Below, one piece after another: positions 9,472 through 51,700 of a DNA stretch of 64,000 bases (position 1 is its first letter; each line of letters starts with the position of its first letter). The notes beneath the pieces were generated by a model. That model was not told the DNA's origin. It was given only the letters and a program-made list of their open reading frames with translations, and did not search any database. The stretch is taken from positions 35,643,883 to 35,707,882 of the forward strand of contig NC_088789.1 in the NCBI RefSeq assembly GCF_949628265.1, written 5' to 3'. A program made the translations under genes and the position numbers. This DNA is from Cloeon dipterum (lineage: Eukaryota > Arthropoda > Insecta > Ephemeroptera > Baetidae).

Positions 9472-11671
9472 TCACGAATTGGTCATCTTCTGGTAGTTGT
9501 TCTGTTTGCCGGAAAACAGGGCGATGAGGGCCTGCAGTTTTTGGCTTATCACAGCTGAAAATAAAAAATTAATCATAATCCTCCTCTATTTTTATTTTTA
9601 ATTTTGATTCTACTACCAGAAGTGGCGAAGACGCCACCGACGACGGAGCACAGCTTGGCGAGCAGCTGGATCCACGAGTCGCGCTCCTCCGAGATGCTGA
9701 CCCTGAGGGCGCTGCTGTCGTACTTGAAGTAGACGCCTGGCGTGCCGTGCGAGCCTTTGTCGTGCGAGATGACGCGCGCCACCTCGCGCACTGAGTACTG
9801 GTACGTCTGCACGTGCCGCCCGCGCACCCGCACCTCCGTAGGTACCACTGTAATGAAGTACTGGTACTGCATGTCCTCTGAAATCAAAGGCAGATATATA
9901 TCATGGTTTTTGGCATGCGCAGATAGGTTTAGATGCGTTAAAACCATGCGCAGTGGGTGTGATTGGCTTAGAAATATGTTAAACTGAAGATTTAAATCAA
10001 CTGCGCATGTGTAATGTGTTTACTTTTCTTCTGCGCATGCGTACAATGCGCACAAATTTCCTGCGCTAGGTCAGATTATTAAACTATTCGGCGATCTTTA
10101 ATTAATTGCAAGTTAATTGGTTTAAGTAAACATTTTTTATAAATGTTGCTTGACTAGGAGCATGCGCAGTAGGTTTAGGTGTGTAAGCGCCATGCGCAGT
10201 GGGTGTTATTGGCTTGAAAATATGTTTGACTGAAGAATTAAACCAACTGCGCATGTGTGGTTCGTAAACATGCCTCTCGCGCATGCGTACAATGCGCACA
10301 AACTTTATGCGCAGGGACTAAAGATTGAAGCATCTGCAATCTTTAACCTTAATGATTGTCACCTAATTGATTCTAAACAACAATATAGTGTATATATGTA
10401 GCTTGACAAGGAGCATGCGCAGTATGTTCCAGAGTGTAATGCACATGCGCAATGGATTTTGAAAGCAGGAAAGAAGATTTTTCTGCGTTTTTCTGCCTCC
10501 GGTGCATGAGTTAGAAGCAAAATAATCATTCACCATGCACAGTGGAATTCTACTTGCTTCTGAGCATGCGCAATAGGCTTCTATGAGTCTCACGCATGCG
10601 CAGTAAAGCCATATTCTCTCCTTCATTATACCTTAAGTTTTATCAATTACATGCGCAGAATCAGTACGTTAACCTGCAATTTAAACATGCGCAGTGAGGA
10701 AAACATTACTTAAGACATGCATTTAAATCATAAATCATGTACTGCGCATGCGCAGTGAGCACACAGACCTATTGTGCATCTCCTTTTCAAAGGAAACGCG
10801 AGTGAAATTAAAGAAATCTCACCTTGCTGGGCGACCTTCTCGTCTCCCTCAAGAGGGTGGACGACGCCGTGGTCAGGTGGGCCGAACGAGAAGCGCGTGA
10901 CCCTGTGCGAGAAGTTGAGGTTGTGCCGCATGGTGGCCAGGTGGACGTGTCCGCCGGGCAGCGGCAGGGTCTGTCCGGCGGCCACGTGCAGGTTCCCGGC
11001 AACCTTCGTCAGCTCGAGCGAGCCCCTGATGCGGCAGGCGTCGAAGGGTCGGCCGCCGCGGTCCGTAGCCTCTGGAAGGTCGTAGGTGCGGCTCAGGGCA
11101 GCCTTCCACAGGACTTGCTGCAGGGCGTGCGCCTCCTCGCGCAGGTACTCGTTGACGTACTTCAGGGAGGAGAAAAAGTCTCGCTGTCCTGCATCCAACT
11201 CGAACCTGAAAGGTGACTCCGGTAATGCGTGGGGGGTACAGTGTGCGGTTGGTTACGCACCAGGTGTCCTGGTACTCGAGCTGTCCGAACGAGGTGACGC
11301 CCTGTCCGGTGGAGTCGACGACGTCGGCCCCGATGGAGCGGCAGGGCATCGCCACGGTGACGTCCAGGTTGACGGCCATCTTTTCGTCCATCAACTCGTC
11401 CGGACTGAGCTGGAAGCTGAGCTTCGAGTCCCAGAAAAAGGCGAATTCCGAGTAGAAGAGCCACATAATCAGCACCACGCTCGCCACGGACACTGCAAAA
11501 TGGTTCAAAAAATGTCCGAATTTATTTTTAGGGACACGTACTGCAGCCGCCGACGGCGCTGGGCTTGACGGACGCCTCCCTCAGCTTGGGGAAGGCGTCC
11601 AGCTGCGCCACCCGCTCCACCGGCGTCTTCGTCTTGCCGCGGAACCGCAGCTGCGGACCGCCGGACGCCAT
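9472..11671 (-). CDS. ERGIC2: ER-Golgi intermediate compartment protein 2 (Erv41 family)
   Basis: Five exons on the minus strand: 11542-11671, 11261-11492, 10823-11205, 9617-9877 and 9472-9554, giving 362 residues in a continuous frame (human protein 377). The Erv41/ERGIC2 family cycles in COPII/COPI vesicles between ER and Golgi and, with Erv46/ERGIC3, acts as a cargo receptor. Visible family marks are LDAFPK near the N-terminus, a first membrane segment at about residues 46-62, DVTVAMPC in the lumenal start, ACRIRG and KVAGNLHV, then QYQYFITVVPTEV and a second membrane segment at about 320-336. The tail after it is shorter than in human. I chose the ATG at 11671 because it places LDAFPK where relatives have it; an upstream in-frame ATG at 11749 is possible. 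Intron 4 (945 bp) holds a TGCGCA-rich repeat array. Confidence 0.93.
9914..10756. repeat. Intronic array of CATGCGCAGT motifs (ERGIC2 intron 4)
   Basis: About 18 copies of TGCGCA-centred words (CATGCGCAGT, CTGCGCATGCG, ATGCGCAC) lie between 9914 and 10756. The last is the perfect palindrome ACTGCGCATGCGCAGT at about 10741-10756. A larger unit of about 250 bp is tandemly repeated, with starts at 9914, 10161 and 10414, each opening with CATGCGCAG. The core equals the NRF-1 (insect Ewg) consensus YGCGCAYGCGCR. A second, independent array with the same core but a different larger unit lies in the clip-protease gene at 20.3-21.4 kb. Confidence 0.85.
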
Positions 11672-31492: not shown

Positions 31493-34400
31493 ATGGCGCC
31501 CGTGCCGCTCGAGGGCCACCAGGCGGCCGTGGGCGGCGGCCAGGAGGCCCGCGGCGGCTCCGTATCGCTCAGCATGCTCATCGACTTCATGGTGCAGCGC
31601 ACCTACCACGAACTCACCGTCCTCGCCGAACTGTAAGGCCCAATTTTGACCCTTTCCGGGACACACCGGACACTTGGAACTGGTTCTAATCTGTATTTTG
31701 ACCATTTAACATGTAATTTTACCTCCTGACCATTAAAGTCGGTGGCCACCATCTGCAATTCTAACTTTTTCCACTGTCCGGTACTGTAATTTGACCATTT
31801 CTGATATTAATCAACCCTTTTCGGACAGCCTGCCGCGGAAGACGGACGTGGAGCGCAAGGTGGAGATCTACAACTTCAGCGCGCGGACGCGTCAGCTGTT
31901 CGTGCGGCTGCTGGCGCTGGTGAAATGGGCGTCGGGCGCGTCCAAGGTGGAAAAGTCGAACGTGATCATGCAGTTCCTGGACAAGCAGAGCCTGCTGCTG
32001 GTCGAGACGGCCGACCTGCTGACCCGCGTGGCCAGGGACACGCTGGTGCACGCGCGGCTGCCCAGCTTCCACATCCCGGCGGCCGTCGAGGTGCTCACCA
32101 CCGGCACCTACGCCCGCCTGCCGGCCGTCGTCCGAGAACGAATCGTCCCGCCGGACCCAATTTCGGCCGCAGAGCGCAGACAGACCCTCCTGAGGCTCAA
32201 CCAGGTCATCCAGCATCGCCTCGTCACCTCCGACATCCGCCCGCAGATGCGAAATCTCAAGGTTTGTCTCGGGAAGAGGGAATTTAATTAAAATATCGTG
32301 GAATTTAATTGAAGAATTGCTAGGTCAGGGACGCCCTTTGCAGGGCAGGGGCGGGGCACCGTGTTGTCATTCGAAATAAAAAATTTCAAAAATCTGGCCC
32401 ATAGGGGCTCCGCCAGGGCCCATTGACCAAACCGTTCCCTATCTTCCTGTGTAAAAAAATTGGCAAAGTTGCGAATTTTGGCGCGAAATTCAAGCAACCG
32501 ACGCGTTTTAATGCAGAAAAGCGTATTTGGAAGTCAGAATCTGAATCCGGCCCATAGGCGAATTTTAAAAAAAATAAACGAAAATCTTTTAAAATTTTCC
32601 GATTTCGGGGTCGTTGGTGGCTGTGGGAGCGGGCGGGGGTAGCTCTAGGGTTCATTCGACGCAGAACATTACGTCGAGTCTAAAGAACTTTGGTTTTTCA
32701 ATCTACGACCCAAAGGAGCCGAGTTATTAATTTTTAAAATCGATTTGTGACATTTCAAACTTTTGCTTTCGGGGCCCAGACGGGGCCCTATGGACCGGAA
32801 GCCGCCGATTTAGATTTCTATCAATGCCCCTAGATTGGGCGCGTCCGCTCGTGTGCGGTTTTCCAAAATCGGATCATTTTTCGAATTTTTACGAATTATT
32901 TTCCGTTGATTTTTTGTAAAAGTCGAAATTTACACAAAAAATGTTTTATTTTTTATTAAAATTCGGCCGTTTGTCCAATCGTGGACCACGAACCCTCATC
33001 GGATAGGTCTTGTATAGGGCTTTGACCTGCACTACCCTGACGACCTTTTTCAGGGTACCCCCACCTGAGATCCGCTCCGAGGCCGGTTTTTAATGCTATT
33101 TTTAGTAATTTTGAGCACATTTGGCAATTTTATACCCTTGCATTTCACCGACCTTCCTCAGGTCGGTTCCTCTAAGACCGATGCCTTAATTGACATGAGA
33201 AATTCTAAAATCTAAAATTTCTGTCAGGTTTTAAAGTAATTTTCCGAGGAAAAAAAATATTTTTGAATTTGTTTGTCATTTTTTTAAAATTAAATGGCAC
33301 TTATTAATTGTTGTAATTTATTCGCCAATTTAATAATTTTTGTAAACATTATTTCAGATCGAGGCTGGTCGGGTGACGTTCGTGGTGGACCGGGAGTTCG
33401 AAGTATGCCTGACGGTGATGGGCGAGGGCGAGAACGTGCCGTGGCGCCTGCTGTCGGTCAAGATTCTGGTGGCGGACAAGGAGACTGGCGAGGGCCGGCC
33501 CCTCGTCCACCCTTTGCAGACGCACTACCTTCACGAGGTGCTGCAATCTCGGCTCGTCGACGAAAAGCAGCCGCTTCACGAGGTACGATAAAAATCGAAA
33601 CAAAAATTCAGAGAAGTTAAACTGATCTGAAAATTCAGGTTTACGACCTGCTGCACCACTTCTGCCTGTCGCTGCGGCTGGAGGTGTTGTACTGCCAGAC
33701 GGTGCGGCTGTGTCGCGAGCGCCTCGAGGAGCACGTCCGCATCGAGGAGTACCGGCCGGGACGCACCCTGAGCGTCAGCTACTGGCGCCACCTGGCCGAC
33801 CAGCCGCAGCACCGGCTCACGCTGCACGCCGACCCGCACGACGCGGCCAAACCGCTCGCCGTCGCCCACCTGCCCTCGCTGGCGCAGGCCGACGCCCACC
33901 TCGTCGAACAGGCGCTCGCCACCGAGCAGCTCAGTGTCGAGCGCCTCCTCGTCCACACCATCTACCTGCGCGCCAGGGCCAGACTCCAGGAACTTAACAC
34001 CGAGCTCCTCGCAATTTGCCAGGACCTAGATTGTGAGTTTTTTCTTTGGAACCACTTTTGACCCCCCTTTGTCGGCCGGAGTTGCGGTTTTAGTGGTTGA
34101 GATTCCGTCTAGATCAAACTGGCGCTTGATTCGTCACCTTGAATCTGCGCAAAATGCTAAAAATCGAACTCCGGAATTAAATTAAATAAGCTCTGAAAAG
34201 TTTCTTATTTCCGGCGATGCAGAGGGATTTATAAGTGGGCGTGGCATAATATCGACCAACTGGAGATCCGCTAAAATCGCCACAAATTCATTTTATATGA
34301 TTATTTCTGTATTTTTTTTCCATGGAACCACTTTTGACCCCCCTTGGTTGGCTGGAGGTGGGAATTTAGGGGTTGAAATTCCGTCTAGATTAAATTGGTT

Positions 34401-37400
34401 CTTGATTGGCCACCCTGAATCTGCTCAAAATGCTTCAATTTGGGACTCAAAGCGATGGATTGTATTTGGGACCACGCCCATTTTTTCTATCCCTCCGTAT
34501 CGGGAAGACAGGCCAAGTTATCACAGGGTAGTTTGCGCTATAAGGTGGTCCTTAATGATTACTACTGCCTGGAATTAACTCCACTCTGAAAAAATGACTC
34601 GTCTCGGAGATACAGAGGGATTTAAAAGTGGGCGTGGCACATCGTAAATGCAGAATCGTTAAAAATCGCCACATTTTCGATACTCGACATTCCTAAATTT
34701 GGTTAAGCTTTTGATAATATAATTCTGTATTATTTTTACCACCACCTCCGGTCTGAGGACTGGGGTCCAGTGTGGTGTTGATAGTAAATCAGTGAATTTT
34801 TCGTTTCCGAAGGTGAACTTCAGGGTTCGCCAGCGGTTTTGTCGGTTGCCGTGTTGCAACCTTGTCTGCGCGCGGAGCTGATGCTGGTGAGCGTGGACAC
34901 GCACTCCGGTCAGCTGCTGGTGCACGTGCCGCAGTGGGCGTCGTCGTCGCCGGCCGTGGTGACGGAGGTGCAGATGGCGCTGAACCACGACCGGACGCGG
35001 CTGCCGACGCTGCTGCCCGAGGTGCGCTTTTGGCTGGCGCAGCGCCGCTGCGAGAAGACCCTGCAGCACCTGCCCGCGTCGGCGCACGAGCGGCTGCCCC
35101 TGCTGCACGCCGCCGACCACCCCCTGACGCGACTCTCGCGCCACCGCATGTACGTGCGTCTGCACCGCCACCGCCGCGTCATCTTGCTCGTCGAACTGCT
35201 GCCCGCCGCCGGCTGCCGCATCCGCACCGCCTTCCACCTCCTCATGGTCAAGCCCGCCAGCATCGAGGACAGCCCTGACGACGATGGTGTCGAGACGGAA
35301 TTCCCCAAGACGTATCTCAGGGTGAGTGTTACTTTGGCCCCCTCCTTAGACTGGAGGTGCTGAGGCTTTGTTTGGATTGTTTCTAGGGAGAGTGGGTGGA
35401 TTTGTAGCTTACCTGAAAATTTCAGGTTGATATCTGAAATACCAACCGAGATATTGAAGGTTTAAAAAGGGGGCGTGGCGTTCGATCGGCCATTGTTGCC
35501 ACGTTACTGATATCAAAATATGGCCGTATTTGGTGTCGATTTATATGTTTTCAACCCTCTGGAACTCAAATCTGGGGTCAATTTTGTGATATCTGATCAA
35601 AATTACGGTTTTTGTCAAATTTTTAACCTTTTGAATGAATAAAATTCGTGATTAGCCAACTTCACGACTTATTTATCCCACGATTCAATTCCAAAACATT
35701 TTATTATTTATACCTCTTTAGCAACACACGGACCCCCTTCCCAGATCGGAATTCTTCCGTTTTAAACCCCAGTCTTTACTTTGGGCCCTCCTCCTTGGAC
35801 TGGAGGTGCCGAGGAATCGTTAGGATTGTTTTTAGTGAAAGTGGGTGGAATTATAGCCCACTTCAAAATTTCAGGCTGATATCCAAAATAGCAACCGAGA
35901 TATTGAAGGTTAATTAAGGGGGCGTGGCGTTTGACCGGCCATTGTTACCACGTTACTGATATCAAAATATGGCCGTGTTTGGTATCGATTCCTATGTTTT
36001 CAACCCTCTAGAACTCAAATCTGGGGTTAATTTTGTAGTATCTTATCAAAATTACGGTTTTTGTTAAATTTTTTAACTTTTTGAATCACTGAAAATCATG
36101 ATTAGCAGTCTGAAACAAGTTTTTATTTATTTTTACTCTCTGCCAACACACGGACCCCCTTCCCAGACCGGAAATCCTCCGTTTTAAGTCCCCTATTTGC
36201 TCAGGTTCAGCACATGGTGGAGTTGGACATGTACGTGGCAACACACGGGCCTTGCACGGCCGTGGACGAGAGCTGCGGCCAGAAGCGCAAGGCGGCCGAG
36301 GGCCCGGCGGCCAAACGGGCCAAGCACTCGGAATACTTCATCCCGGAACTATCTCACGTGGTGGCCATGTGCGACGAACGGCTGCCGTTGGTGACCGTGG
36401 CGGCCGAGCTGTCGAAACGCGGCATTCCGCACCAGGGCATCCAGGTGGAGGCCGGCGCGACGGCCGTCGTGCTGCGCATCGTCAAACTGCCCACGCGGTC
36501 GCCGGCCTTCGAGAAGCGGCTGCTGTCCGTGTCGCTGCGCATGCAGGGCAAGGGCGGCCGCGCCTGGCTGGCCGAGTTCGTGTTCCACGGCGCGCCGCTC
36601 CAGAGCACCCACCCCCGTGAGCAGACCTTCCGCAGGCCCGTCTACTTCCAGTACGAGCTCGGACTCGAGGAGCACGTCCCCGCCACCGTCGACGCCCTCC
36701 TCAGGGACTGGCACACCCTCGAGAACCTCTACCAGCTCGTTGATGACCTCGCTTTCTTTTTCAAAAACGGTAAGATTGCTTTTTTAATATTTATTCTACG
36801 CAGAATTTTATGGACAGTCTAAGGAACTTTGATTTTTTAATCTACGACCCATAGGAGCCGAGTTATTAATTTTAAAAGTTCAAAAAACGCGATTTGGGAC
36901 ATTTCAAACTTTAGTTTTTGGGTCCCACACGGGGCCCTTTGGGCCCGATGGTGCCGATTTTAATACCAATCGATGCCCCTTGGTAAAGCACGTCCGTCGG
37001 TATGCGGTTTTTCAAAATCGGACCATTTTTCGAATTTTTACGATTTTTTTCGGCCAAAAAGTTGAAATTTTTAAAAACATGGTTTTATTTTTGTTAAAAT
37101 TCGGCCGTTTGTCCGATCTACTAACACGAACCCTCCAACCCTCATAAGATAAGTCTTAAACGGGGCTTTGACCTGGCATACCCTTGCGACCTTTTTCAGG
37201 GTACCGCGACCTGAAATCCGCTCCAAAGCCGGTTTTTAATTCTTTTTCAGCTATTTTCAGCACATTTGGCGATTTTTCATCATTGGTTGTCGCTGACCTT
37301 GCTCAGGTCGCTTGACCTGAGGACGTGTTTGTCATTTTTCCTTCGCCGACCCTTTTATTTTAATCTTTTGGTCAATTTCGCCGCCTTGACGAACTAGTTT

Positions 37401-40400
37401 TTATACTCGAAAATCGATCTATTTTCACACGGCGGAGAAATATGGATGTTCTGATTGGCTGGCGGCGGAATACGCTTTTTTAACCAATCAGAACGTTCGT
37501 GGTCCTCCGCCGGGCTTAAATAGATCGCTTTTCATGACTCGTAACCGAATCCTTAGAGAGAAACCCTAAAAGAAAAAATTTTCAGGTGACAAGTACGGCC
37601 TGTCAGGGTTGGTGACGATAAAATCGTACTCTTACAAACGCTTGGTGGTTTCGTACGGCGCGGAGCGCGCGTTGAGCGTCAGCGTGACCTGGAGTGCGGA
37701 GGAGCGGGCCTTCAAGCTGATCCTGAACCCGAGCACGAGCAACCCGCACTCGTTGGTGCGCGAGCAGCTGCAGGCGCACCTGAACCGGCACCGCGACCTG
37801 GCGCTGACCCTGGCCCTGGTGTGCGAGACGCAGGAGCCGCTGCAGGCGCTGGCCAAGCTGCCCGGCCTGCCGCAGCTCGGCGTCTTCCAGTCGAAGCTGC
37901 AGGTGGCCACTCAGGGCTTCACCTTGCTGCCCCAGTCACCGACGCACCTTCGCCTCGTCTACCAGGGCGTCTACTGCCTCGAGGTGCGCGTCCGCGGCCA
38001 GGGACTCGTCAGCATCCGCGACGGCTCCTACAGCCACCTCGACCGCACCCACATCCTCAGCGACCTGACGCCGACGCAGGGCCTCAAGGTCAGTGTGATT
38101 TCTATTTTTTTAAATTTTAGTGTCTGATGGGTCCTTCCTCAGGCGTTCCTGTCCAAGTACGTGGACGAGTCGGCCGTGTTCATGCGGCGCCGGTCGCAGT
38201 CCGAGGACGACAACCCTCCCTCCCCCGTGGTGGCGATGGAAAACCCGGCGTCCAACCCTGGAAGCGCGTCCGGACAGTCAGAGACGCAGAACACGAGCTC
38301 GCCGTCGGTGCCGTCGCCGTTCCTGGGCGGCCTCAGGCCCCAGAGCCCCGCCACGAGGGGCCCTGACGCGCCCACCCCTGCCGCCGTGATGCGTTTCCAC
38401 CCCCCGCCGCACACGCCGCCCAGCAACCCGCACACCCCGGCCAGCCCCCATCCCGCCATGGTGAGTGCCGATTCTGAATTTTATAATTCTTCATTTTGCT
38501 GCCGCGGAAATTTGGCCGGTCGCTCGCCCCGCCCACTCTTATATACCTACGAGTCAGCTGACTGGTGCGTGCGATGCGGAGGGATATAAAAGTGGGCGGG
38601 GCGGTCACATTTCCGCGCCACGAACGAAATTTAATTACTGATCTCCGTCCTCAGGGTCACGGCTTTTCGCCGGCGTCCTTCTCCCTAGCGTCGCCTCCCC
38701 CGGCGGCCGGAGCGACGGCGCCACTGGTCAACCCTTCGCCGACGGTGCTGCCATCTCCGTCGCCCATCTTGCACTCGCCCAATCCGCTGCCGTCGCCGCT
38801 GCTGGCCCAGAGCTCGCCTCAGCAGGTCGTCGGACACTCTCCTGCCGCTGCTTTTCCTCAGGTACGCCTCCAGTTAAAAAATTTGCCCTATTAACGCGTT
38901 CGGACAGGTGACTTTGGCCGAGTCTAGCCCGTTCCCGTCCTCGCCGGCGGCGTCCAACTGGCCCGGAAGCCCGAGCGTGCCCCGCGGCTCCCCGGGGGCC
39001 GCTCGGGGGGCGCCGGGGCACAGTCCGGCCTTCACGCAGAGCCCGGACGCGGTGGGCGCCGCGGCGGCTGCCTCGAAGGCGGCGCCGCACATGTCGCGGG
39101 TGCTGCCGCAGCGGTCGTGGGCCGGCGCCGTGCCCACGCTGCTCACCTACGAGGCCCTCGACCTGCTGTGCACCCCTGGGCCGGGCCCCGCCCCCGTCAA
39201 CCCCCTCCTGCACCCGTGCCCCCTGGAGCGCTTCCTCGGATCGCTCTACCTGCGAAGACAGCTGCAGAGGCACATCCAGTCGGACGAAGCGGTGAGTGCT
39301 CGGTTTTTCACCTCCCCTCTTTTATTTTTCTGTCCCTTTTTGTTTGTTTCGACAAATGATGCAGTTTTCGAACTCGCGGGCGAATTTGCAGCTGCACCCT
39401 GTGGCGAACCAGGAGCCGGGCGTGGTGCACATGAAGACGGACACGATGATGTGCCGCGTCTACCAGAACACGACGCACCTGCAGAGTCTGCACATGAAGC
39501 TGTCGCCGCTGGACGAGCACGACGAGAGCTCGTGGAGCGCCGAGGAGTTCCAGCTGCTCGAGAAGTACTTTGAGTCGAAGGTCGCCTGTCCGCCCTTCAA
39601 GCCGCAAGCGCTCATCTCGTTCGCGCGCATGCTCATCGTCCCGTACAACGTCCTCAAGGACGTCGTCCAGATCATCCGCTTCGAGATGGTGAGTCTCGAA
39701 ATAGAAAATGCCACGCCCCCTTCTAAAACGCATTCCGATGGAAACTCAGGTGCCGCAGATCGGTCTGCAGCAGAACTGGCGGTGGTCGGTGCAGTGGCGG
39801 CTGCGCAACCCGCCCTCCGGCTACGGGCTCATCCCGATCGGGGTGGCCTCGTTCGTGATTTGCCGCCAGAAGATCCTCTTCTTCCTCAGCATCACGCGGC
39901 AGGGCGTGCAGTACCCGCCGGGCGTCGAGCCGCCCTCCACCATCTTGCCGCTCGTCTACGACATCATGACCAACGTCACGCAGCTCGCCCACAAACAGGA
40001 GCAGAACCAGGTCAGTGCTACACCCCCTTTTTTGGCGGGAAAGCAGGCCAAGCTTAATTAGAATTAGCATAAATCCGTTTAAACCACATTCTGCTTGAGC
40101 AATATTATGAGAAAGTAAAATTGGCGCCAAAGAATTTCAATTAAACGGCAGCCATCTTTGGTATTTCTGGTTTCGGGCCTCTGCCGGCGTTGTTAACAAG
40201 AAAAAAAGGTGAATAAAGAAAGGTTAGGTAGCGGGAAACAGAAAATTTGCACTTACTTACATTGTTTCAGAACCGAAAACGGAAATGAAAAGATTTTGAG
40301 AAATCGGCGGGATGGCGAACGGCGAATTTCTCGCGCAAGTTGGTGGGGTGGGGTCGCGTTCCGCGGGCGAGCGCTCTGATTGGTTGCTAGTCACGCCCAC

Positions 40401-42280: not shown

Positions 42281-44053
42281 TTTATTCCTTCTTCAAGTCA
42301 GATGAATAAATGATTTATTCGGCCTCGCAAACAAATTGGCACAGTTTTTGTGACTGAGGCGCAGGTGTTTGAGGCAATCTGCGCCATTCCTGTCGAGAAC
42401 GCAGGGCTCTCGATCCTCTCCACATCTTCGAAAGGTCGCTGTGTCGGGGCACCTGCCTTACCTGTTGACGCTGTCCACTCCAATGTTGGTGCCCGCGAGT
42501 TCCAAATGTCGCCACCAGGCCAACCAGCAGCTGCGATTTTTAAATAAATAATGATTTTACGGGGATACCAAACTCTCATTTGAAGCAATCGTGAAGGCAA
42601 CACGTTCTCATTGAGTAATTTTTATTTTTTATGCTTGACAGAGTGTAAAATAAATAATTTAATCTTGTGCGCAGGGATTAAAATCAAAATTATCAACCCC
42701 CTGCGTGTAGTATTGCCTTTCTGATTTTTAATTAAAATTTTTTGAGGGTTGGTGAACATGAGCTTGACGGCACTTCCTGTTCGCTCGGACCTTTCGAAGC
42801 GAGAATAAAATTTAATGCTACACTTTCCTCCTTAAACCAATTTTTTCATCGGCTTTTTTATTCATTTTGTCAATTTTCAATCAGTAGTTGGAACTCAGAA
42901 ACAAAGTTGCTATTCATTAATTAATTATTAATTAAGAATTATCAGGGAATGAGAAGGCCAAAAGAAAAGCGGATGAAATTGCGGCCAGAAAGAGATTCTT
43001 TTCTCTCGTGCGGTGAGAGTGGAAAAAGCAAAAAGGCTCGCGCGCTCTTTGCGAGCTCAAAAAACGGAGAAATGTTTCCTCCTGTCGGATTTTCATGGAA
43101 ATTTGAAAACCGAATGACCAGCTAGTTGAACGCTGCAAAAGGATTTCTAAATTTGTATAGTGAACAAAAAATCGCACATTTTTTGTACAATTATATTTTT
43201 ATTTATGAAATTAATATTTGAATGACAGGAAGGCTTATAAAATAAATTCTGGTACAATTATTCGGTAAAATTACATGAAACGAAGCTTATGAGTTTTAAT
43301 TACATTCAAGTATTAGTCATAGTCGATTTCAACAATTAATTTAATTTTTACATCTTTTCGAGAATGCGGTGCCTGTGAAGCGATGAAAAGTTTTGTGTTT
43401 TGATAAGGTTATTTCTTGTTTTCAGCCGCGGAGACGTCGTTTTGGAGCCATAATTCCAGGTGAGTGTTTACCTATTTTAAATATTCTGTTTTTTTACTTA
43501 CAATCGGCCTCCAACGGCGATGGCCAAATTGATCGAAATGTGCTTGGAGCCTCCACAGATTTAAAATCGTACAGAAAAATCGTCTTTTTTATTTTGCAAT
43601 GTGGTACAACGAGCCAAAATCGTGAAAATTCTGATAAAAAAAAGCCTAAATAAGAAACTCAGGGCATTCGACCTGAGCAAGGAAGGCCGAAGGAGATTTA
43701 AAGTTGTGGAAGAGAGAAGTTGAAAAATGTGCTGCAATTGCGACGGCAAATTAGTGGCTGCGGTTTCTGTCGATTCGCAGGTGGAGGCATTGGCGAGGGA
43801 AAGGGGCGTTGCCTCTGGCGACACCAAGCCCACCTGCCCCGCCATCCAGTTGTCCTTGCTCAGTCCTAAAAAACACTCAATTTCGAACGCCAAGCCGAAC
43901 CACAAATGAAAAAGACCCGAATTTCAGCAAAACTGCACGCTCTCTGCTTCCAATGTGCCCTGGAATGTGTAATTTTCCTTCATTCGAGCCAAACGTGTCG
44001 ATGCAGCTCTCCGCAAGGGCGAAATGCGCACAAAATGAGAGCGTTTTGGAACT
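42281..44053. repeat. Left copy of a 1.77-kb segmental duplication
   Basis: This segment matches 62105-63870 in the same orientation with only scattered substitutions and small indels. Shared landmarks are GCGCAGGTGTTTGAGGCAAT, GGGGATACCAAACTCTCAT, GAGACGTCGTTT and GCTCTCCGCAAGGGCGAAAT. It includes the last 130 coding bases of the caspase-NACHT gene (43924-44053). The match ends at GAGCGTTTTGGAACT. Confidence 0.9.
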
Positions 44054-47000
44054 TCTCTATTTAAATTTCCCCAATAACCACGGTCTTTATCATTGGCCAC
44101 GTCCTCTGCCGTGCGGCCTTTGCTGTCCCTGGCTTCCAAGTCCACCCCTGCTTCATACACAAGGAAACGGAAAGGTTTTCTGCCTGACCATGTATAACTG
44201 TTGGAAGATAAGCGTTTGAAGTTGTTGTTCACCAAAATGTGCAGTGCAGTTTCTCCTTCATTTGTCGTTTCCTTCACCAGTTGAGGGTTAGTTAAGTGCA
44301 GGAGTTTGACCACTTCTGAATTGTTGTGCCAGTTAATGAAATCGATGAAAGTGCAGGCGAAGTGCAGGGCATTCCATCCTCTGGCGTCTTTGGCAGCCAC
44401 GTCGGCGTCTTTCGCGATGAACTCGCGGACGAGCTGCAAATGTCTGTGCTGGGCGGCGCAGTGGAGAGGAGATTTTCCTCGCTCGTCCTTTTCCGTCAGG
44501 TCGCCTCGCAGCAGCAGGAAGTGGTCGTAGATGAAGTGATCGTGTTCGGTCCAACTTTGTGTCTCGCCTCTTGGAATGAAAGAACTCAGGTCATCGCCGA
44601 TTTCTCTCGCCAGCCAGAGCACGAATTCTCCGAATCTACGGTCCACAGCCAGCTGCAAAGGACTCTTCCCCTCTCCTGTCCTGATGTGTTTCAAATGTGG
44701 ACTCTTTGAGAGCAGGTACTCAGCAATTTCCTTTTTTCCGTAATAGACGGCATAGTGGAAAGCGTTGAAATCGCCATTGTACTCCTTCACTGTCTGAAAA
44801 ATATTTGCCTCAAGCGTCACCTTATCTCGGGCCAATCCGCTAATTTCTTCCTCCACGAAAAGCTTGACAATGTCCAGCTGGCCGTGCTTCACAGCCACGT
44901 TCAAAGGGTCCCAAATTTTACGGCCATCAAAGTATTGTTTGGCGCCGTGTTTGAGGAGAATTTTAACGTACTTAAGTTTCCCCTCTCTGCAAGCACTGTA
45001 AAGGGTGTCTCCATACATAGAACGTTCTAAAGTATCTTTGCCGAATCCGTTTTCCAGGAACAATTCGAGAATCTCATAGTTATCATTAGCTACCGCTGTG
45101 CAACCGGCGCCGGCGTTGGAACTTGATTTTCTGAGCAGCTCGACGAAGTTGGGGAAAGTCTCTTTTAGCTGGTTGAACACGGAGGTTGCGTTGTAACAGG
45201 CGATTTCTATGAGGACCCAATCAATGTATTCTTCCAAGGTTCGTGAATCGATGGCGTTCATTTCCAACAGCTCGGTGAAGATTTCTTCGCTTCTTATCGC
45301 TTTGACCAGCAATTTAATAGCGTAATTCACGCAAATTGAAGAACGGTGTTTTTTACAACCAAGTACTTGAATATCAAACCTTAAATAATTGAAATAGTTT
45401 TCCATTTGCACGTCACAAAAAGTAATGTGTGGCTTCAGCACTTTAAAAATATGCTTGAGGTTTTTCTCGCAAACGTGATACAGAAACAGAGCAGATTTGT
45501 TTGAAATTTCCTCGGGCACTTTTATTTGCGTGTAAATCTTGATCTCTTCTTCGTTTTCCAAAGTCGAATAGAAAAGATCGAGAAACTTACTGACCTCTGC
45601 CATTCCCCAGCTGCCAATAAATTTAAAATCAAAATTGCTTGACTCTCCCACGTTTTTCAAAAAGTGTTGGGCGGCGAGAAATTCTGCAAATGTCTGGTGA
45701 AGGAAAGTAACCGTTTCTTGTTCCACGATTGCGACTCCATAGTCGTTCATCTTCGCCAAGTCTTCTCTCGTCACTCCATCCCCGACAAGCGGCTCGTTAT
45801 TCATATAGCGAAACGCGATCAACGGAAGAGGGATCAGTTCCTTGTCAATACTTTCGTCTTCCACTTGTTTGCAGCCATATTTCCTCTCCAAACCCTTTTG
45901 TACCTTCTTCCTCACCACCTTGTCGTAAATTTGGAATAAATTTCCTTCGCCGCTGCACTGAGCAACTAACGACAGGTGCAGCGGGTTGACCAGAATCGTG
46001 TTCATATTTCCATGTCTATATTGTAGAGGTATATATATGGAGTTTGAAAGGCCTATTTGTTGGACGGCGTGAAGCACTCTTTTGATTTCTTCGTCGTTGT
46101 TATTGGTCTCTAACCGCAGAAACTCGATTTGCTTTGCTTCATCGAATGGCTCTATTTCAACAAGTGTAGCGTTTTTAATCGTTTCCTCGATCACTTTCGC
46201 TTCGTGCGGTCTCGTTGCCACGCAGAGTGGAACTCTTTTTTCTTTCAAAGCCCTCACTATTCCGAGAGCTTTGTCCCTGCTGTGCGGACAAATTTCGTCG
46301 AAACCGTCCAGGAAGACGACTACTTTTTTCTGAGCAATCCAATTGTTTATGTCTTCAGAGGAATTCCCCGTGGTTTTTGCTAGAAATTCGACTGCATCCA
46401 CTCGACGTTTTGTTAATGTTTTAAAGTTTTTATTTAAGGAAATATTCAAAATTTTGGCATTTTGATCTGATTTACCGACTTGAAAAGCGATTTCTTTGAG
46501 TACAGTCGATTTTCCTGCGCCAGCCACCGAACTCAACAGCCAAACCTGGTTTTCTCGCAACATTTTCGCCTCTTTGATCAGATCCTTGAAGCAAATCTTT
46601 TTCTTGTTGCCTCTCACTGTCAGCTTGAAATCTGGTTTCACGAAAATCCTCGGCCAGTTAGGAAAATCAAGCAAGTACTGAAGCGTCGAGTTAAGCAAAG
46701 TTAGCTCTTTTTTAGTGCCAGTTGTGAGCAGCGGCACTAAAAGTTCTTGCAAACTTCTTCCTTTTTTAAGCTCATCTCCTTTGAAAATTTCGATCAATTT
46801 CTCCAGCAAGTCTGACAAAATACCAATTGTTTTGAACAGTTTTTAAAAAATGAACGAATGATGCGCTATACCTTTGTCCTTCAAAATCATGATAAGCCAG
46901 CCGCTGTGGTTCGTTGACGCGACCTTCAATGGGTACTTTGCTGAAGAGTGCTAAAATCGAACCAAGATTGAAAAATATGGAAATTAATAAAACAACGGAG

Positions 47001-48760
47001 CTCACAGAGTCGCATTTCAGCGGCTTTTGGTCAATAATGAAGAAGATTTTGGGCTTGCCGATCAATCTTTTATTTTTTGGTCCGACAAATTCGTGCACAA
47101 TGCTCGTGATTGGAATATCTCTTCCGCCCACAAGCACGCAAACTTCTTTTGTCTCTTTTTTTTCGCTCACTTGGCCGAAAATGAAAGTCAAAACGCAGCC
47201 GACGTCGTGCTCCATCTCGCAAACTGTGAAGGCAAACGTTTATATTAATGTTTTTTTTTTAATTTTTGTTATATACCTTGTTCGGAATAACTTATTAAAT
47301 TAGCATCATTCAACTTCCAAGTTCTGGTGTCAAAATCCAAGTTTTGCCGCAGAGCTTTTTCTGTTTCTTCAACTTTTTTTGTAAGCTGTTCGTAAAAGAT
47401 GAAGGCTCGCCGGCCTCTGATGTTTTTTCCTTCGTCCGACTTCCAAGAAAAATATTCAGATGTTGATGTGATTGTTGCTGCTTTTTCCATTCGCGAATCA
47501 GTTCTTGAAATAGATTTTTCAGCAGTCAATGACCTAGAAACAAGCATGTTTGTTATTTAATTGTTGGCTCTGAATGAAATCACCTGGAGAAGGAAAAACT
47601 CCTGTCTAAGGGGAACATTTTGACCTCTGCCGTCTGACCAACAGGAAGTTTAGTTTCTGGGTCAATTCCTTCGAGCGACACTTTGTGCATGGCGTACTGG
47701 ACTGACGTGAGGAATAACAACAAAGGTTTATCCTCGCTCATCTGGTTCAAAACATCGCACACTATTTTCACGAACCAGGAACCGTCTACACTTGTTGTAG
47801 CCGTGGTTGCTGAAAGAAGATAATAATTTAAATATTATTTTTTGAATATGAATTACGCTGTTAAATTATACTTTCGACTGTTGAATAAACGATGACTGTG
47901 TTTGGCATATCAGGAAACGACGTGATTCGGCAAGAATTACGGTTGTTGTAGCTGTATTTTTCCTTGTTTGGATCGAATTTTGCGTCATCTAGCTCTCCCC
48001 TACACGGCTGTGGAATTTTTACTTGCATAATTTGCGATTTTAGCAATGCTAGCCGCAAACTTACGCCAAAGTTGACAATCTTCAAACATTCCTTGAATTT
48101 GTCCAGTATTTCCAGGGAGTCGAAAACCTCTTTTGTCGTGAAGGAAATATATTTATTCCCGTCGAACACTGATCCCAAGTAATCAGTGTCGATCGATCCA
48201 TTTCTGTGGCCGTGAGAGAGGATAAACAGCACGAAAACCGACGGAATGACTGAATTGCAATGGAAATAATGAAAATCGGACGTGACGTTTCTCTAAATTC
48301 CATTATTGCACACCTTTTGAGTTGAAATAACGCAAGAGCTTTTCCTGGCTGCCGAGAAGATCGAGCAAAATTTTCCGTGTCGGTCTATAAAGGCTGCGGA
48401 AATTACAATTTCGGTTGTCTCCAAAGGTCTTTTTCAAGTTCTCAACGTCTGCCTTGTCCCACATTCGATATTCTGGCGTGTTTTCGAAATCGTAATGGAC
48501 GACAAGAACAAACACGCTGTAAAGAAACGACATTTAAAACGATATGGCGTTTAATAGATAAGAAAATTTACTTGTCTGCGTTTTTTGTCCTAATTTGCCC
48601 GTCTGATTCAAACTGGAAGAAACCTAGAGTCGATGGACCTTTTGGTAGACCTTGATCCTCCCCTGGAAAATCGGGGATTTGCCGTTAGGTTCGAGGGACT
48701 CGCAGTTAAACTTTGTACCAATGTGCCGGAAAAATTACCTTCTATTAAAATCTTCTCCAT
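43924..48760 (-). CDS. Caspase-pseudocaspase-NACHT-ankyrin protein (NLR-like)
   Basis: Ten exons on the minus strand: 48739-48760, 48572-48662, 48314-48516, 48065-48249, 47872-48007, 47584-47809, 47277-47533, 47006-47223, 46872-46950 and 43924-46811, giving 1,434 residues in one frame. Residues of about 38-287 form a caspase (C14) domain with LFILSHGH (His118), PCRG (Cys169), VIVYSTVE and DGSWFVK. Residues of about 325-530 form a second caspase-like domain with GKPKIFFI and SGWLIM. There IDQKPLK replaces QACRG and FIFGQ replaces SHG, so it is predicted inactive. A NACHT NTPase follows, with Walker A GAGKST at 570-575, Walker B FLDGFDE at 639-645 and the ATRP sensor. Ankyrin repeats fill about 1040-1390. 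Family knowledge suggests ligand- or stress-triggered oligomerisation that activates the protease; that is inference, as is a cytosolic location. Confidence 0.87.
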
Positions 48761-51700
48761 AGTATTTCGATCTCTCTGTAAAGTGCATTTTAAACCTTAA
48801 TTAAATTGCAAATATCGAATAAAATTTTTATAACAATATTTTAACAATGTCGTTTGTAGCATAGTAATAATTGTACATTTTTTAAAGGCCCTATATTAGT
48901 CCTGGAATCGGACCTCGGTTCCGATCCTGTGATCGACGCGTGACACTTAAAATTTATTCAGTGCATGCAGCCACCGAGATGGCTGGACGGCTGGACCTGC
49001 AAACGTGCAAACTGGAAGATTTGCCTGTAAGACGTCCGTGTCGCCATCGAGAGAGACGAACAGTTTACCGTCCCCGTATTTGCGAATTTCCGTATAGGTT
49101 GGCATTGAATTATTCCACTAAAAGTAAAATTAAAGTTGTACAGATACCTTCTCCATCTTGATCTGGAGTTTGTCTCTTTCTTTTAATTCATGGAAGCAAC
49201 CAACACGACAGACACTCCTAAATTAAAGCGGCAGCTCAATCTGGAAAAAATACCGAAAATAGGAGAATTATTTGTACAAATATAGTTACATTTTTAGCGA
49301 CTCCTTGAACCATAAGGATTGCCGCGAAACCAGTAAATAATATGTGAAAATAAACATAATTATCGGCCAACAATAAAAGGAAAAGGCACAAATGGTGGCG
49401 GTGCACCTGCACCGGTATCGACGGTCAGGTGCCTGCATACTAAAACGCTTATTTGGGGAAGATCCAGTCTTCCGGATCGTGAGTGCACGCTAGCCATAGC
49501 TCGCCCGATTTTGCCTGCAAACTATAGCGGGCTGTTTTTTACGGGGTTTGAAAGATCGCGATTTTCTTCCTAAACAACGATTTAATGTCTTTATGCTGCT
49601 CACGAGTGCAAAGGGAGACTTTTTCGCCGCCTTTTTAAGTGGCAGCCGCTTAAATTAGGTTGTACCGATCGAAACAGCGATTCAGTTTCAAGAAAACTCA
49701 TCCACGATCCTGCTTTTAAAAAGGCCAAGGCTAGCTTTTTACCTCCTTTTAAGATGGATCGTGCCAAAATGTCGTATTAAATAATTATTTTGCAGTCCCT
49801 AAACGTACAATGAAAGAAAAAAATTTATAAGCCTAGAAAATGCAGTGTTCCCAGTTGGTAACCCATCCAAGTACTGCGATTGCACTCAATGCTACTACTT
49901 CACTTTTTTGCGAAATATAATTCTGCACCTTTTGCACTCTCGCTATTTCCAATTTTTTTCCAACGTATTTTATTAATACTTCATAAACCCAATTGAAGTG
50001 CCAATTTTAAAAAAAATGAAAATAATAAAAAGTTAAACGTATTTAATTAATTTTGCTGGTTGGTCCTTAAATTCTTAAAAAAACACTCTGTATTGGCACT
50101 AGCGTATATTGTTTATTGTTTTAGTCGGTAAAACCTCAAACAAAAGTTGAAGTCTCAAACTAATATTTACCAGTGTGGAATGGAGTGGGTGCGCTGGCGT
50201 CCACTCTCGAGGGAGCGCGGAGATGCCACGCGAATTCACTCACTCGGCTCTGACTCACGAAAAATGAGCAGCCGCAACGCAAAGTGGCCTGCTGCCTTTC
50301 GCGGATCCGCCCTGAGTTGTGACGCTCTGCGGCCGGGCAAAGTGCGGCACCGACGGAACCTAATTTTAAGACAGAAAAAGGCGAAAAAGGGAATGGTTTA
50401 ATAAAGTAAAAAGAATACAGTTCAGAAGAATTTTTAAAGCTAAGCATTGGAGAGATAATGACCCAAAATAACCCTAAAAATTGTATTTTTAGTCAGAATT
50501 AATTAGAGTCTTCTTTTATTTCTAGACAAGAGACCTGGAAATTTAATGTTGATCGTATTTCAACTTTTCTAACAAATTATAAATCGCACAGTTCGTGCCG
50601 ATTGGAAGACTTGCAAGGAGAGAAAATATATATTCTGGTGTGGTAACAACTGAACTGAAACTCTTTCTTAGAGAGGCAAGCTGATGGCAAAACAGGCAAT
50701 TGAATAATTTATTTAATCGCATACAAATTACCCTCGGTATTTTTAAAATACATATATTTTTGCTCTTTTTATCCGTGTCGTCGGATCGGGAAGGGCGCGC
50801 ACTGCACTCTGGCACGAATGCTGAATTCCGAGTGCGAATATCACCGCGAACGGATATCATTATCTCACCAGGCCGCACATTTCAGGGACCCAGCCCACTC
50901 AAGGGCCACTTGCCTCCGTACCGAGGACTTTTTTTTTTGATTCGCTAGACATTCGTGTCCCGTGAAGCCAAATCACAAAAATGCTGGAAAGGTGCAAAAG
51001 CAGCCCGTTGAGCAATTCGAGCATTTCGAGTCACTAAACTAACCACTTTTTGCCATCTCTGACGCATTGGCTAGCCAGAATTAGATCTCCCAACTGCTCA
51101 AAATACCTCTCGTTGCTTTGACACTCCTGAGAATGCCGCTGAACAATGCGAGCCAACGGGCTGGTTTTATCAATATTATTACTTGAAATTGTTCCAACAC
51201 ATAGAATACAGGATCGGTTCACGCTTTGGGGCCCGAAAGGGGCGGGGGGTTTGGGAGTGGGATGTCTGCCAATGCTGCGACGGCTTCGACACTCGTCAAA
51301 ATTCCGTAACATTGCGAGCCAACGGGCTGGTTCAAGATCTACAAAGGCGGTGGAGGCCCTAGTGCTTCAAACCTTGAACCTGCTCTGGTTTTCGGTTAAA
51401 AATAATTAATTGGTAAGCGAAGGAGCAAAAGAAGGAGTAGAAGAAAGAAAAAAATCGAATTTCCTGCTGGATTTTGAAAGGTTTCAACTATAAAATTGTC
51501 AGCAGGCCCACTTGGGTTTCGGTTTAATTTCAAAACTGATGACTGGAAAATAATTTTCCTTGACACGCACGATTAATTAAGGCACTTTTTGGTATATATT
51601 TCGGCACAAAAACGATAAACTGAAAAATGTGCCGATTATTCACTCTCCTCGAGCCATCAATGCCTGCTGTTGGTCGGCGAAACCGGTGACGCCGCGCGTG

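Follow-up and report, generated by a model that had tools for sequence, protein, structure and literature searches.

A gene on the minus strand of a 64,000 nt stretch of the genome of the pond mayfly Cloeon dipterum (G000:C4:35643883-35707882; this whole stretch is called the window, and plain positions are counted from its first base) encodes, in order, an active-type caspase domain, a dead caspase domain (pseudocaspase), a NACHT domain with a winged helix, and ankyrin repeats. We give a little better than an even chance (about 0.52) to the view that the gene belongs to a large mayfly family of STAND/NACHT receptors, which carry a caspase effector in the same chain and act by the steps proposed below. 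We read the protein as a one-protein inflammasome-like switch that would cut its own protease free; it is from sequence that we infer the proteolysis, the oligomerisation and an immune role.

Gene structure and domain content

The minus strand was re-spliced by hand and by script, giving eight exons (48516-48314, 48249-48065, 48007-47872, 47809-47584, 47533-47277, 47223-47006, 46950-46872 and 46811-43924) separated by seven introns of 50–64 bases, all with GT/AG borders, and forming one open frame of 1396 codons plus a stop. Together with exons at 48775-48739 and 48662-48572 these make up the in-frame chain of ten exons put forward in a first-pass annotation of this DNA, and no stop lies between exons 9 and 10 of the spliced frame. 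The best protein match was RefSeq LOC135942108 (P0001, 1442 aa), with 100% identity over 100% of the spliced query, values taken from the search listing for a query whose first residues were a guess. All ten exons are borne out by this protein, which has one more, a tiny coding exon further upstream, bringing the count to 11.

The families for which a hidden Markov model check had been proposed were all recovered by Pfam: Peptidase_C14 over four exons (7.8e-15), and NACHT (2.8e-10, above the cut-off) and Ank_2 (6e-34), both in the last exon. The precomputed Pfam list for P0001 (1442 aa) holds caspase, NACHT and ankyrin families only. The motifs named by the first-pass annotation are likewise present, namely LSHG (H126), PCRG (C177), DGSW, GAGKST and FLDGFDE (P0001 numbering). 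For comparison across the family, 44 of the 62 mayfly matches were aligned (alignment A1), the rows being chosen by the author and the other 18 omitted as near copies or as seemingly lacking the caspase part. Walker A (GAGKST) and Walker B (FLDGFDE) were read directly, and both Asp residues of the latter are invariant in the 44 rows. A NACHT domain with both Walker motifs, and an NLR-like fold with a winged helix after the NACHT core, place the protein among the STAND NTPases of the NACHT clade. The suggestion that the protease is built into the sensor is supported by a caspase domain above the Pfam cut-off and by the NACHT half of a family member, which models on NLRC4. Pfam gives ankyrin families and no C-terminal LRRs, in either the last exon or the full P0001 list, so the protein falls outside the bona fide NLRs, defined in PMC12909245 as NACHT plus LRR.

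A large family in two mayfly genera

If the "single" gene of the first-pass annotation is taken to mean a lone gene, it is not one, since at least 101 NACHT matches are present in the C. dipterum genome. Searches with individual exons gave 113 matches at 104 places for the exon carrying the catalytic His (nine exons being found in two pieces, and none with a stop), 114 for the pseudocaspase exon and 94 for the p10 exon. A His exon lies upstream within 6 kb of 93 of the 101 NACHT matches, a pseudocaspase exon lies within 3 kb of 97, and 92 have both; in all 92 strand and exon order agree, the median distances being 1590 and 537 bases. Control counts for the His exon were 1/101 on the opposite strand and 3/101 downstream, and the linkage of caspase, pseudocaspase and NACHT is beyond chance. 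The largest cluster (C4:35.60-36.04 Mb) contains 18 NACHT matches, the window gene among them. The split-codon positions of seven cluster genes are 174 or 175 residues apart, and a paralogue on C5 has an open stretch of 1180 aa in which both its pseudocaspase match and its NACHT match are read in the same frame (frame worked out by hand).

At G000:C3:8346641-8631669, eleven divergent matches to the pseudocaspase exon have no NACHT match as partner in the lists; two of them have a faint His-exon match nearby, and the group has the appearance of another family branch that has diverged. At four other sites (C4:29991825-29998494, C1:20967496, C4:20444743 and C5:21743300) His and pseudocaspase exon matches are adjacent and the lists hold no NACHT match; these have either a diverged NACHT domain or encode caspase-pseudocaspase proteins without the switch.

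The lineage distribution, given as unknown in the first-pass annotation, now takes in at least Cloeon and Neocloeon. Three protein searches were made, each scoring about 8000 candidates. With the window protein as query, 62 of 65 matches came from Cloeon dipterum or Neocloeon triangulifer; in a family search (best 120 of 156 matches listed) each listed caspase-bearing match was from these two genera; and in a further search so were 8/8 matches. Caspase-bearing relatives beyond Cloeon and Neocloeon were thus not among the matches listed in these searches of annotated proteins, from which it does not follow that the caspase-NACHT fusion is absent outside Baetidae. NACHT-ankyrin proteins without a caspase domain occur in Lamprigera and Blattella. 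Another NACHT-ankyrin protein (P0076), which resembles the family profile and has no listed caspase domain, is encoded on a JGI metagenome contig of 9043 bases.

In a tree of 42 rows (P0016 and P0012 omitted), 31 of the 32 Cloeon rows fall in a Cloeon-only clade (support 100/98), and P0057 is paired with a protein from Neocloeon (100/100). This grouping suggests that caspase and NACHT were already fused before the two genera separated, most of the Cloeon copies being younger than that split.

The caspase domain and its active site

The first domain of the window protein has the caspase fold with p20 and p10 parts, as in peptidase family C14A. The catalytic His and Cys are each found in 44/44 aligned rows, the window gene included, and the Arg after the Cys is equally invariant. 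When the 18 omitted mayfly matches were rechecked, 10 had both His and Cys, one (P0042, LOC135943092) had Ser for Cys within the sequence EPSRG, and seven were models without one or both sites; the dyad is therefore intact in 54 of the 55 members, from two genera, whose models cover both sites. P0042, which retains the linker Asp described below, has the appearance of a natural dead effector or decoy.

The substrate pocket is less regular. Residues R64, R207 and Q161 of caspase-3 are the Arg, Arg and Gln of the S1 pocket that read Asp. An R64-like Arg is present in 39/44 rows, including the window gene, while the R207-like position has Arg in 26, Thr in 16 and another residue in 2, and the Gln of QACRG is replaced in all 44 (Gly in 38, Ala in 5, Ser in 1). 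The 16 members with Thr, among them the window gene, are Cloeon copies, mostly in two groups, and the change from Arg to Thr may mean an altered cleavage specificity. Conservation of the dyad argues for protease activity in the family, and the S1 pocket argues for caution on this point, above all for the window copy. The label "executioner-type" given in the first-pass annotation is not upheld: caspases-3, -6, -7 and -8 tie by fold, CED-3 is the top caspase by Foldseek, and the pocket has the replacements just listed.

The pseudocaspase and the linker

The second caspase-like domain of the window gene gets only a weak Pfam match (0.025, below the cut-off). A profile of 16 rows finds PDB caspases, with a best E of 4.4e-9; the best 60 of 134 matches are all caspases, and the top one ends just before the catalytic Cys. 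By PDB alignment the catalytic columns are residues 389 (His) and 437 (Cys) of P0046, and 0/44 rows have His or Cys there, so the domain is a pseudocaspase in every row examined. The window protein is c-FLIP-like in this respect, having a caspase-homologous domain without the dyad. In the case of caspase-8 and c-FLIP(L), active and dead caspase domains can pair into an active heterodimer; the mayfly protein has both kinds in one chain, and by analogy its pseudocaspase may pair with the active caspase.

The linker between the two domains is predicted to be disordered (pLDDT under 50 at residues 290-308 of P0046), and its sequence is free to vary apart from one column, which is Asp in 39/43 rows and is followed by Ala, Ser or Gly in 40/43 (P0016 omitted). 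The motif D[SGA] occurs in 39/44 linkers, whereas 2000 shuffles gave 17.9 on average and 28 at most, figures that are no probability because related sequences are not independent. It is also found in 9/10 Neocloeon rows, whose linkers otherwise differ markedly. In a second set of 45 proteins, five of them non-mayfly (P0063-P0065, P0076 and P0079), the linker pattern was matched in 25, and D[SGA] was present in 26/28 linkers (25/27 distinct; shuffle mean 9.0, maximum 17); since many of these proteins are closely related paralogues of those in the first set, this is no independent replication. In three of these linkers the motif stands at another place (P0025 once, P0066 twice), and two have Glu at the aligned site. 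When D[SGA] was scanned along the proteins, 4 of 69 scan windows had a higher z-score than the linker, in parts modelled as structured (e.g., the DG of Walker B), and for this reason the linker is not singled out by z-score alone; what sets it apart is that, of all the columns in this disordered part, a single one is well conserved. Caspase sites usually take this form, an Asp with a small residue after it in an exposed linker, and the conserved Asp-Ser/Gly/Ala has the look of a site for self-cleavage and is indirect evidence for cutting after Asp.

Evolutionary rates

Rates were computed from exact codon maps of the cluster genes. The median NG86 ratios of nonsynonymous to synonymous change (dN/dS) over all usable pairs were 0.61 for the caspase, 0.38 for the pseudocaspase, 0.41 for NACHT plus winged helix, 1.09 for the pre-ankyrin part and 0.76 for the ankyrins. 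The corresponding pN/pS values (95% bootstrap) were 0.84 (0.59-1.33), 0.34 (0.14-0.70), 0.39 (0.32-0.47), 1.12 (0.82-1.58) and 0.76 (0.64-0.92), from four author-chosen pairs of close, non-overlapping paralogues (three pairs for caspase and pseudocaspase), of which the tree confirms only P0001/P0002 as sisters. The NACHT value differs from those of the ankyrins (p 7.6e-6), the pre-ankyrin part (p 1.4e-8) and the caspase (p 9e-4), and not from that of the pseudocaspase (p 1.0). The sensor end and the protease change fast, and the switch and dead caspase are held; positive selection in the pre-ankyrin part is suggested by these ratios, not proven. In the pair P0005 and P0006 of the C4 cluster, the caspase is identical at all 247 codons compared and the ankyrins have diverged (pS 0.19), which points to gene conversion or exchange that homogenised the effector end.

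Proposed mechanism and alternatives

At rest, the ADP-bound NACHT domain and winged helix would hold the protein monomeric with the caspase off, as the NLRC4-like fold suggests. The fast-changing surface of the ankyrin and pre-ankyrin parts would then bind a ligand in the cytosol, or a host protein that has been disturbed, upon which NACHT would exchange its nucleotide and oligomerise. The crowded caspase domains could pair with each other or with the built-in pseudocaspase, in the manner of caspase-8 and c-FLIP. The conservation of the linker site suggests that the caspase would cut the Asp-Ser/Gly/Ala bond and leave the scaffold as a free protease, or that the cut would limit the signal. Finally, the freed caspase may trigger cell death or another defence response. 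Such a mechanism would bypass recruitment through CARD or death domains. Its parts would form a closed circuit from binding to killing, consisting of a variable sensor, an NLRC4-like switch, a dead caspase, a disordered hinge with a cuttable Asp and an active-type caspase.

The family of about 100 genes look like self-contained danger sensors. A more far-reaching version, held tentatively and with less than even confidence, is that baetids possess a private arsenal of about 100 one-protein inflammasomes, in which fast-changing ankyrins sense, NACHT gathers, the pseudocaspase partners the caspase, and self-release occurs at one Asp; gene conversion would keep the effector ends alike as the sensor ends diverge, placing new specificities on a fixed killing module.

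Several observations weigh against a sensor that releases its own protease. The usual Asp specificity is not assured, because of the Thr at the S1 position and the loss of the QACRG Gln in the proportions given above, and P0042, with Ser for its catalytic Cys, still keeps the linker Asp. Since the caspase pN/pS exceeds that of NACHT, constraint on the protease is not shown among close paralogues and the sensor end is not singled out. Gene conversion distorts pairwise rates, and the linker shuffles ignore shared ancestry. As to the second domain, hhalign gave no significant match between it and the caspase profile of the family (probability 0.3%; P0016 and P0012 omitted from the profiles), and Peptidase_C14 was found at E 0.05 in the pseudocaspase region of 2/16 members (best 8.1e-6). 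The pseudocaspase reading is retained because of the PDB matches, all of those listed being caspases, and the end of the best one before the catalytic Cys.

Some of these points would fit a different role, which we regard as unlikely, in which the caspase domains are mainly scaffold or decoy, the protease being weak or lost in many copies, including that of the window, and signalling is done by recruited ordinary caspases. Such a role is favoured by the S1 Thr of the window gene, by the replaced Gln, by a caspase pN/pS with an upper bound above 1, and by the Ser of P0042. It is countered by the retention of His and Cys in all but one of the members covering both sites, and a conserved linker Asp before a small residue would make little sense if no protease cut after Asp, although another caspase could supply the cut.

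Quite improbable, in our estimate, is that the same machine serves outside defence, in the policing of development, moulting, selfish elements or meiotic conflict; as in fungal NACHT allorecognition, copies would kill any cell without the partner allele. The size and clustering of the family, the many copies that arose within Cloeon and the occurrence so far in two baetid genera are compatible with this, and a passage of PMC12881547 describes fungal NACHT proteins that control non-self recognition. Receptors for pathogens are expected to show the same features, and no datum separates the two roles.

Very little probability attaches to an annotation artefact, in which an adjacent caspase-like gene and a NACHT-ankyrin gene were wrongly merged: the fusion is known here from genomic sequence and protein models, not transcripts, and several family models (P0007, P0008, P0011, P0018, P0031, P0034 and P0053) lack all or part of the first caspase domain, but the order and spacing recur in 92/101 copies, the introns are short, a single exon runs from the last part of the caspase into the first part of the pseudocaspase, and the same fusion recurs on other contigs of Cloeon and in another genus. 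Two separate genes, which the first-pass annotation had named as a finding that would speak against its one-gene model, are rejected at the sequence level on the strength of the single RefSeq protein, the recurring order, the joining exon, the shared C5 frame and the conserved split codons. The one-gene reading, with caspase, pseudocaspase, NACHT and ankyrins in the order first claimed, is supported.

Features of the window

The positions of the parts of the receptor gene are collected in Table 1. It is adjoined by a MED14 gene (window 31737-40057, + strand; Med14, RM5, RM6 and RM8 by Pfam), and at 10876-11580 on the minus strand there is an open frame with ERGIC_N (7.9e-16), an ordinary secretory-pathway gene.

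Table 1. Parts of the caspase-NACHT-ankyrin gene, in window positions and P0001 residue numbers.
Feature	Position	Strand	Comment
First coding exon (MEK)	about 49148..49156	-	N-terminus MEKRDRNTMEK of P0001 placed by hand; upstream of the start in the first-pass annotation; too short for tblastn mapping
Coding exon RDRNTMEKILIEG	48739..48775	-	P0001 residues 4-45 map at 100% (tblastn); borders by hand; ATG of the first-pass annotation at 48760
Coding exon with conserved LGFF...NAD lead-in to the caspase domain	48572..48662	-	Lead-in common to paralogues; borders by hand
Active-type caspase domain, four exons (residues 46-296)	47584..48516	-	
Catalytic His codon (H126)	48212..48214	-	Position by hand
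Catalytic Cys codon (C177, GPCRG)	48002..48004	-	
Single exon with caspase end, linker and pseudocaspase start	47277..47533	-	Ties both domains in one exon
Asp308 codon in disordered linker	47497..47499	-	Predicted self-cleavage site TD/S
Pseudocaspase (residues about 332-480)	46872..47427	-	Identified by profile match to PDB caspases
NACHT core	46114..46527	-	Walker A about 46521-46504, Walker B about 46314-46294
Fast-evolving helical stretch between winged helix and ankyrins (residues about 869-1045)	45118..45648	-	Borders approximate; the pre-ankyrin part of the rate analysis (pN/pS 1.12)
Ankyrin repeats and C-terminal tail	43924..45117	-	

Relation to known systems

Compared with animal NLRs and inflammasomes (NLRC4 and kin), the mayfly protein has no LRR, CARD, pyrin or death domain in its Pfam list; its caspase is in the chain and not recruited, and ankyrins replace the LRRs. 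An exon-by-exon genome scan gave one CARD match (G000:C3:11478003-11478242), and diverged or split CARDs could escape such a scan. Gasdermin (PF04598) had no match in a scan of the Cloeon genome, a result that is uninformative as the controls gave none either.

Placing a protease within a receptor is of a known kind, given the parallels in bacteria, fungi, coral, amphioxus and sponge. Passages of PMC3501461 and PMC8195603 describe bacterial metacaspase-NACHT-WD40 and caspase-STAND conflict proteins, which also join a caspase-fold protease, NACHT and repeats in one chain; the mayfly protein differs in its metazoan-type caspase and pseudocaspase, its ankyrins and its insect host. In fungal NLRs with an N-terminal S8 or CHAT protease, the protease is again the N-terminal module of a receptor, as set out in part of PMC12881547, where fungal proteases are also fused to WD40, TPR or ANK repeats; these protease families differ from the mayfly caspase, and the fungal ones control gasdermins. 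Among animals, coral caspase-X (Acropora) has two caspase domains in one protein, one of them predicted inactive, according to passages of PMC4715348; there the inactive domain comes first and in the mayfly second, and the term NACHT is absent from the main text of that paper. Amphioxus LRR-caspase and TNFR-caspase proteins have receptor domains fused straight to a caspase, the cases named in passages of PMC2575513 being without NACHT, and the same paper reports NACHT as absent from Drosophila and C. elegans. There may be a precedent for a caspase-bearing animal NLR in the sponge Dysidea avara, where CASc is among the domain names of an NLR figure legend in PMC12909245, the arrangement being known from that legend only.

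The statement of the first-pass annotation that NACHT-effector proteins are rarely reported in insects agrees with what was found in the open-licence literature, although an NLR is described in a crustacean in part of PMC12370184. No caspase-NACHT protein appears in the passages seen of PMC8260672, PMC10050748 and PMC3196919, and NACHT, caspase and ankyrin are absent from the main text of the Cloeon papers PMC7250882 and PMC11491810. Among the papers listed in searches of the open-licence literature, none describes, by its title or abstract opening, a caspase-NACHT fusion in mayflies or other insects, and a metazoan caspase with pseudocaspase, NACHT and ankyrins at this scale in an insect was not found there.

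The current model of insect immunity rests largely on Toll, Imd and RNA interference. At least 92 caspase-NACHT loci in a mayfly would mean that winged insects contain an extensive system of intracellular receptors equipped with their own protease, undescribed as far as the literature was searched. Because sensor, switch and protease share one chain, it might be possible to reconstitute the whole route from recognition to proteolysis in cultured cells by introducing a single gene. The mayfly family is an animal parallel to the protease-NACHT proteins of bacteria and fungi, and it offers a natural test case for the way in which active and dead caspase domains work together.

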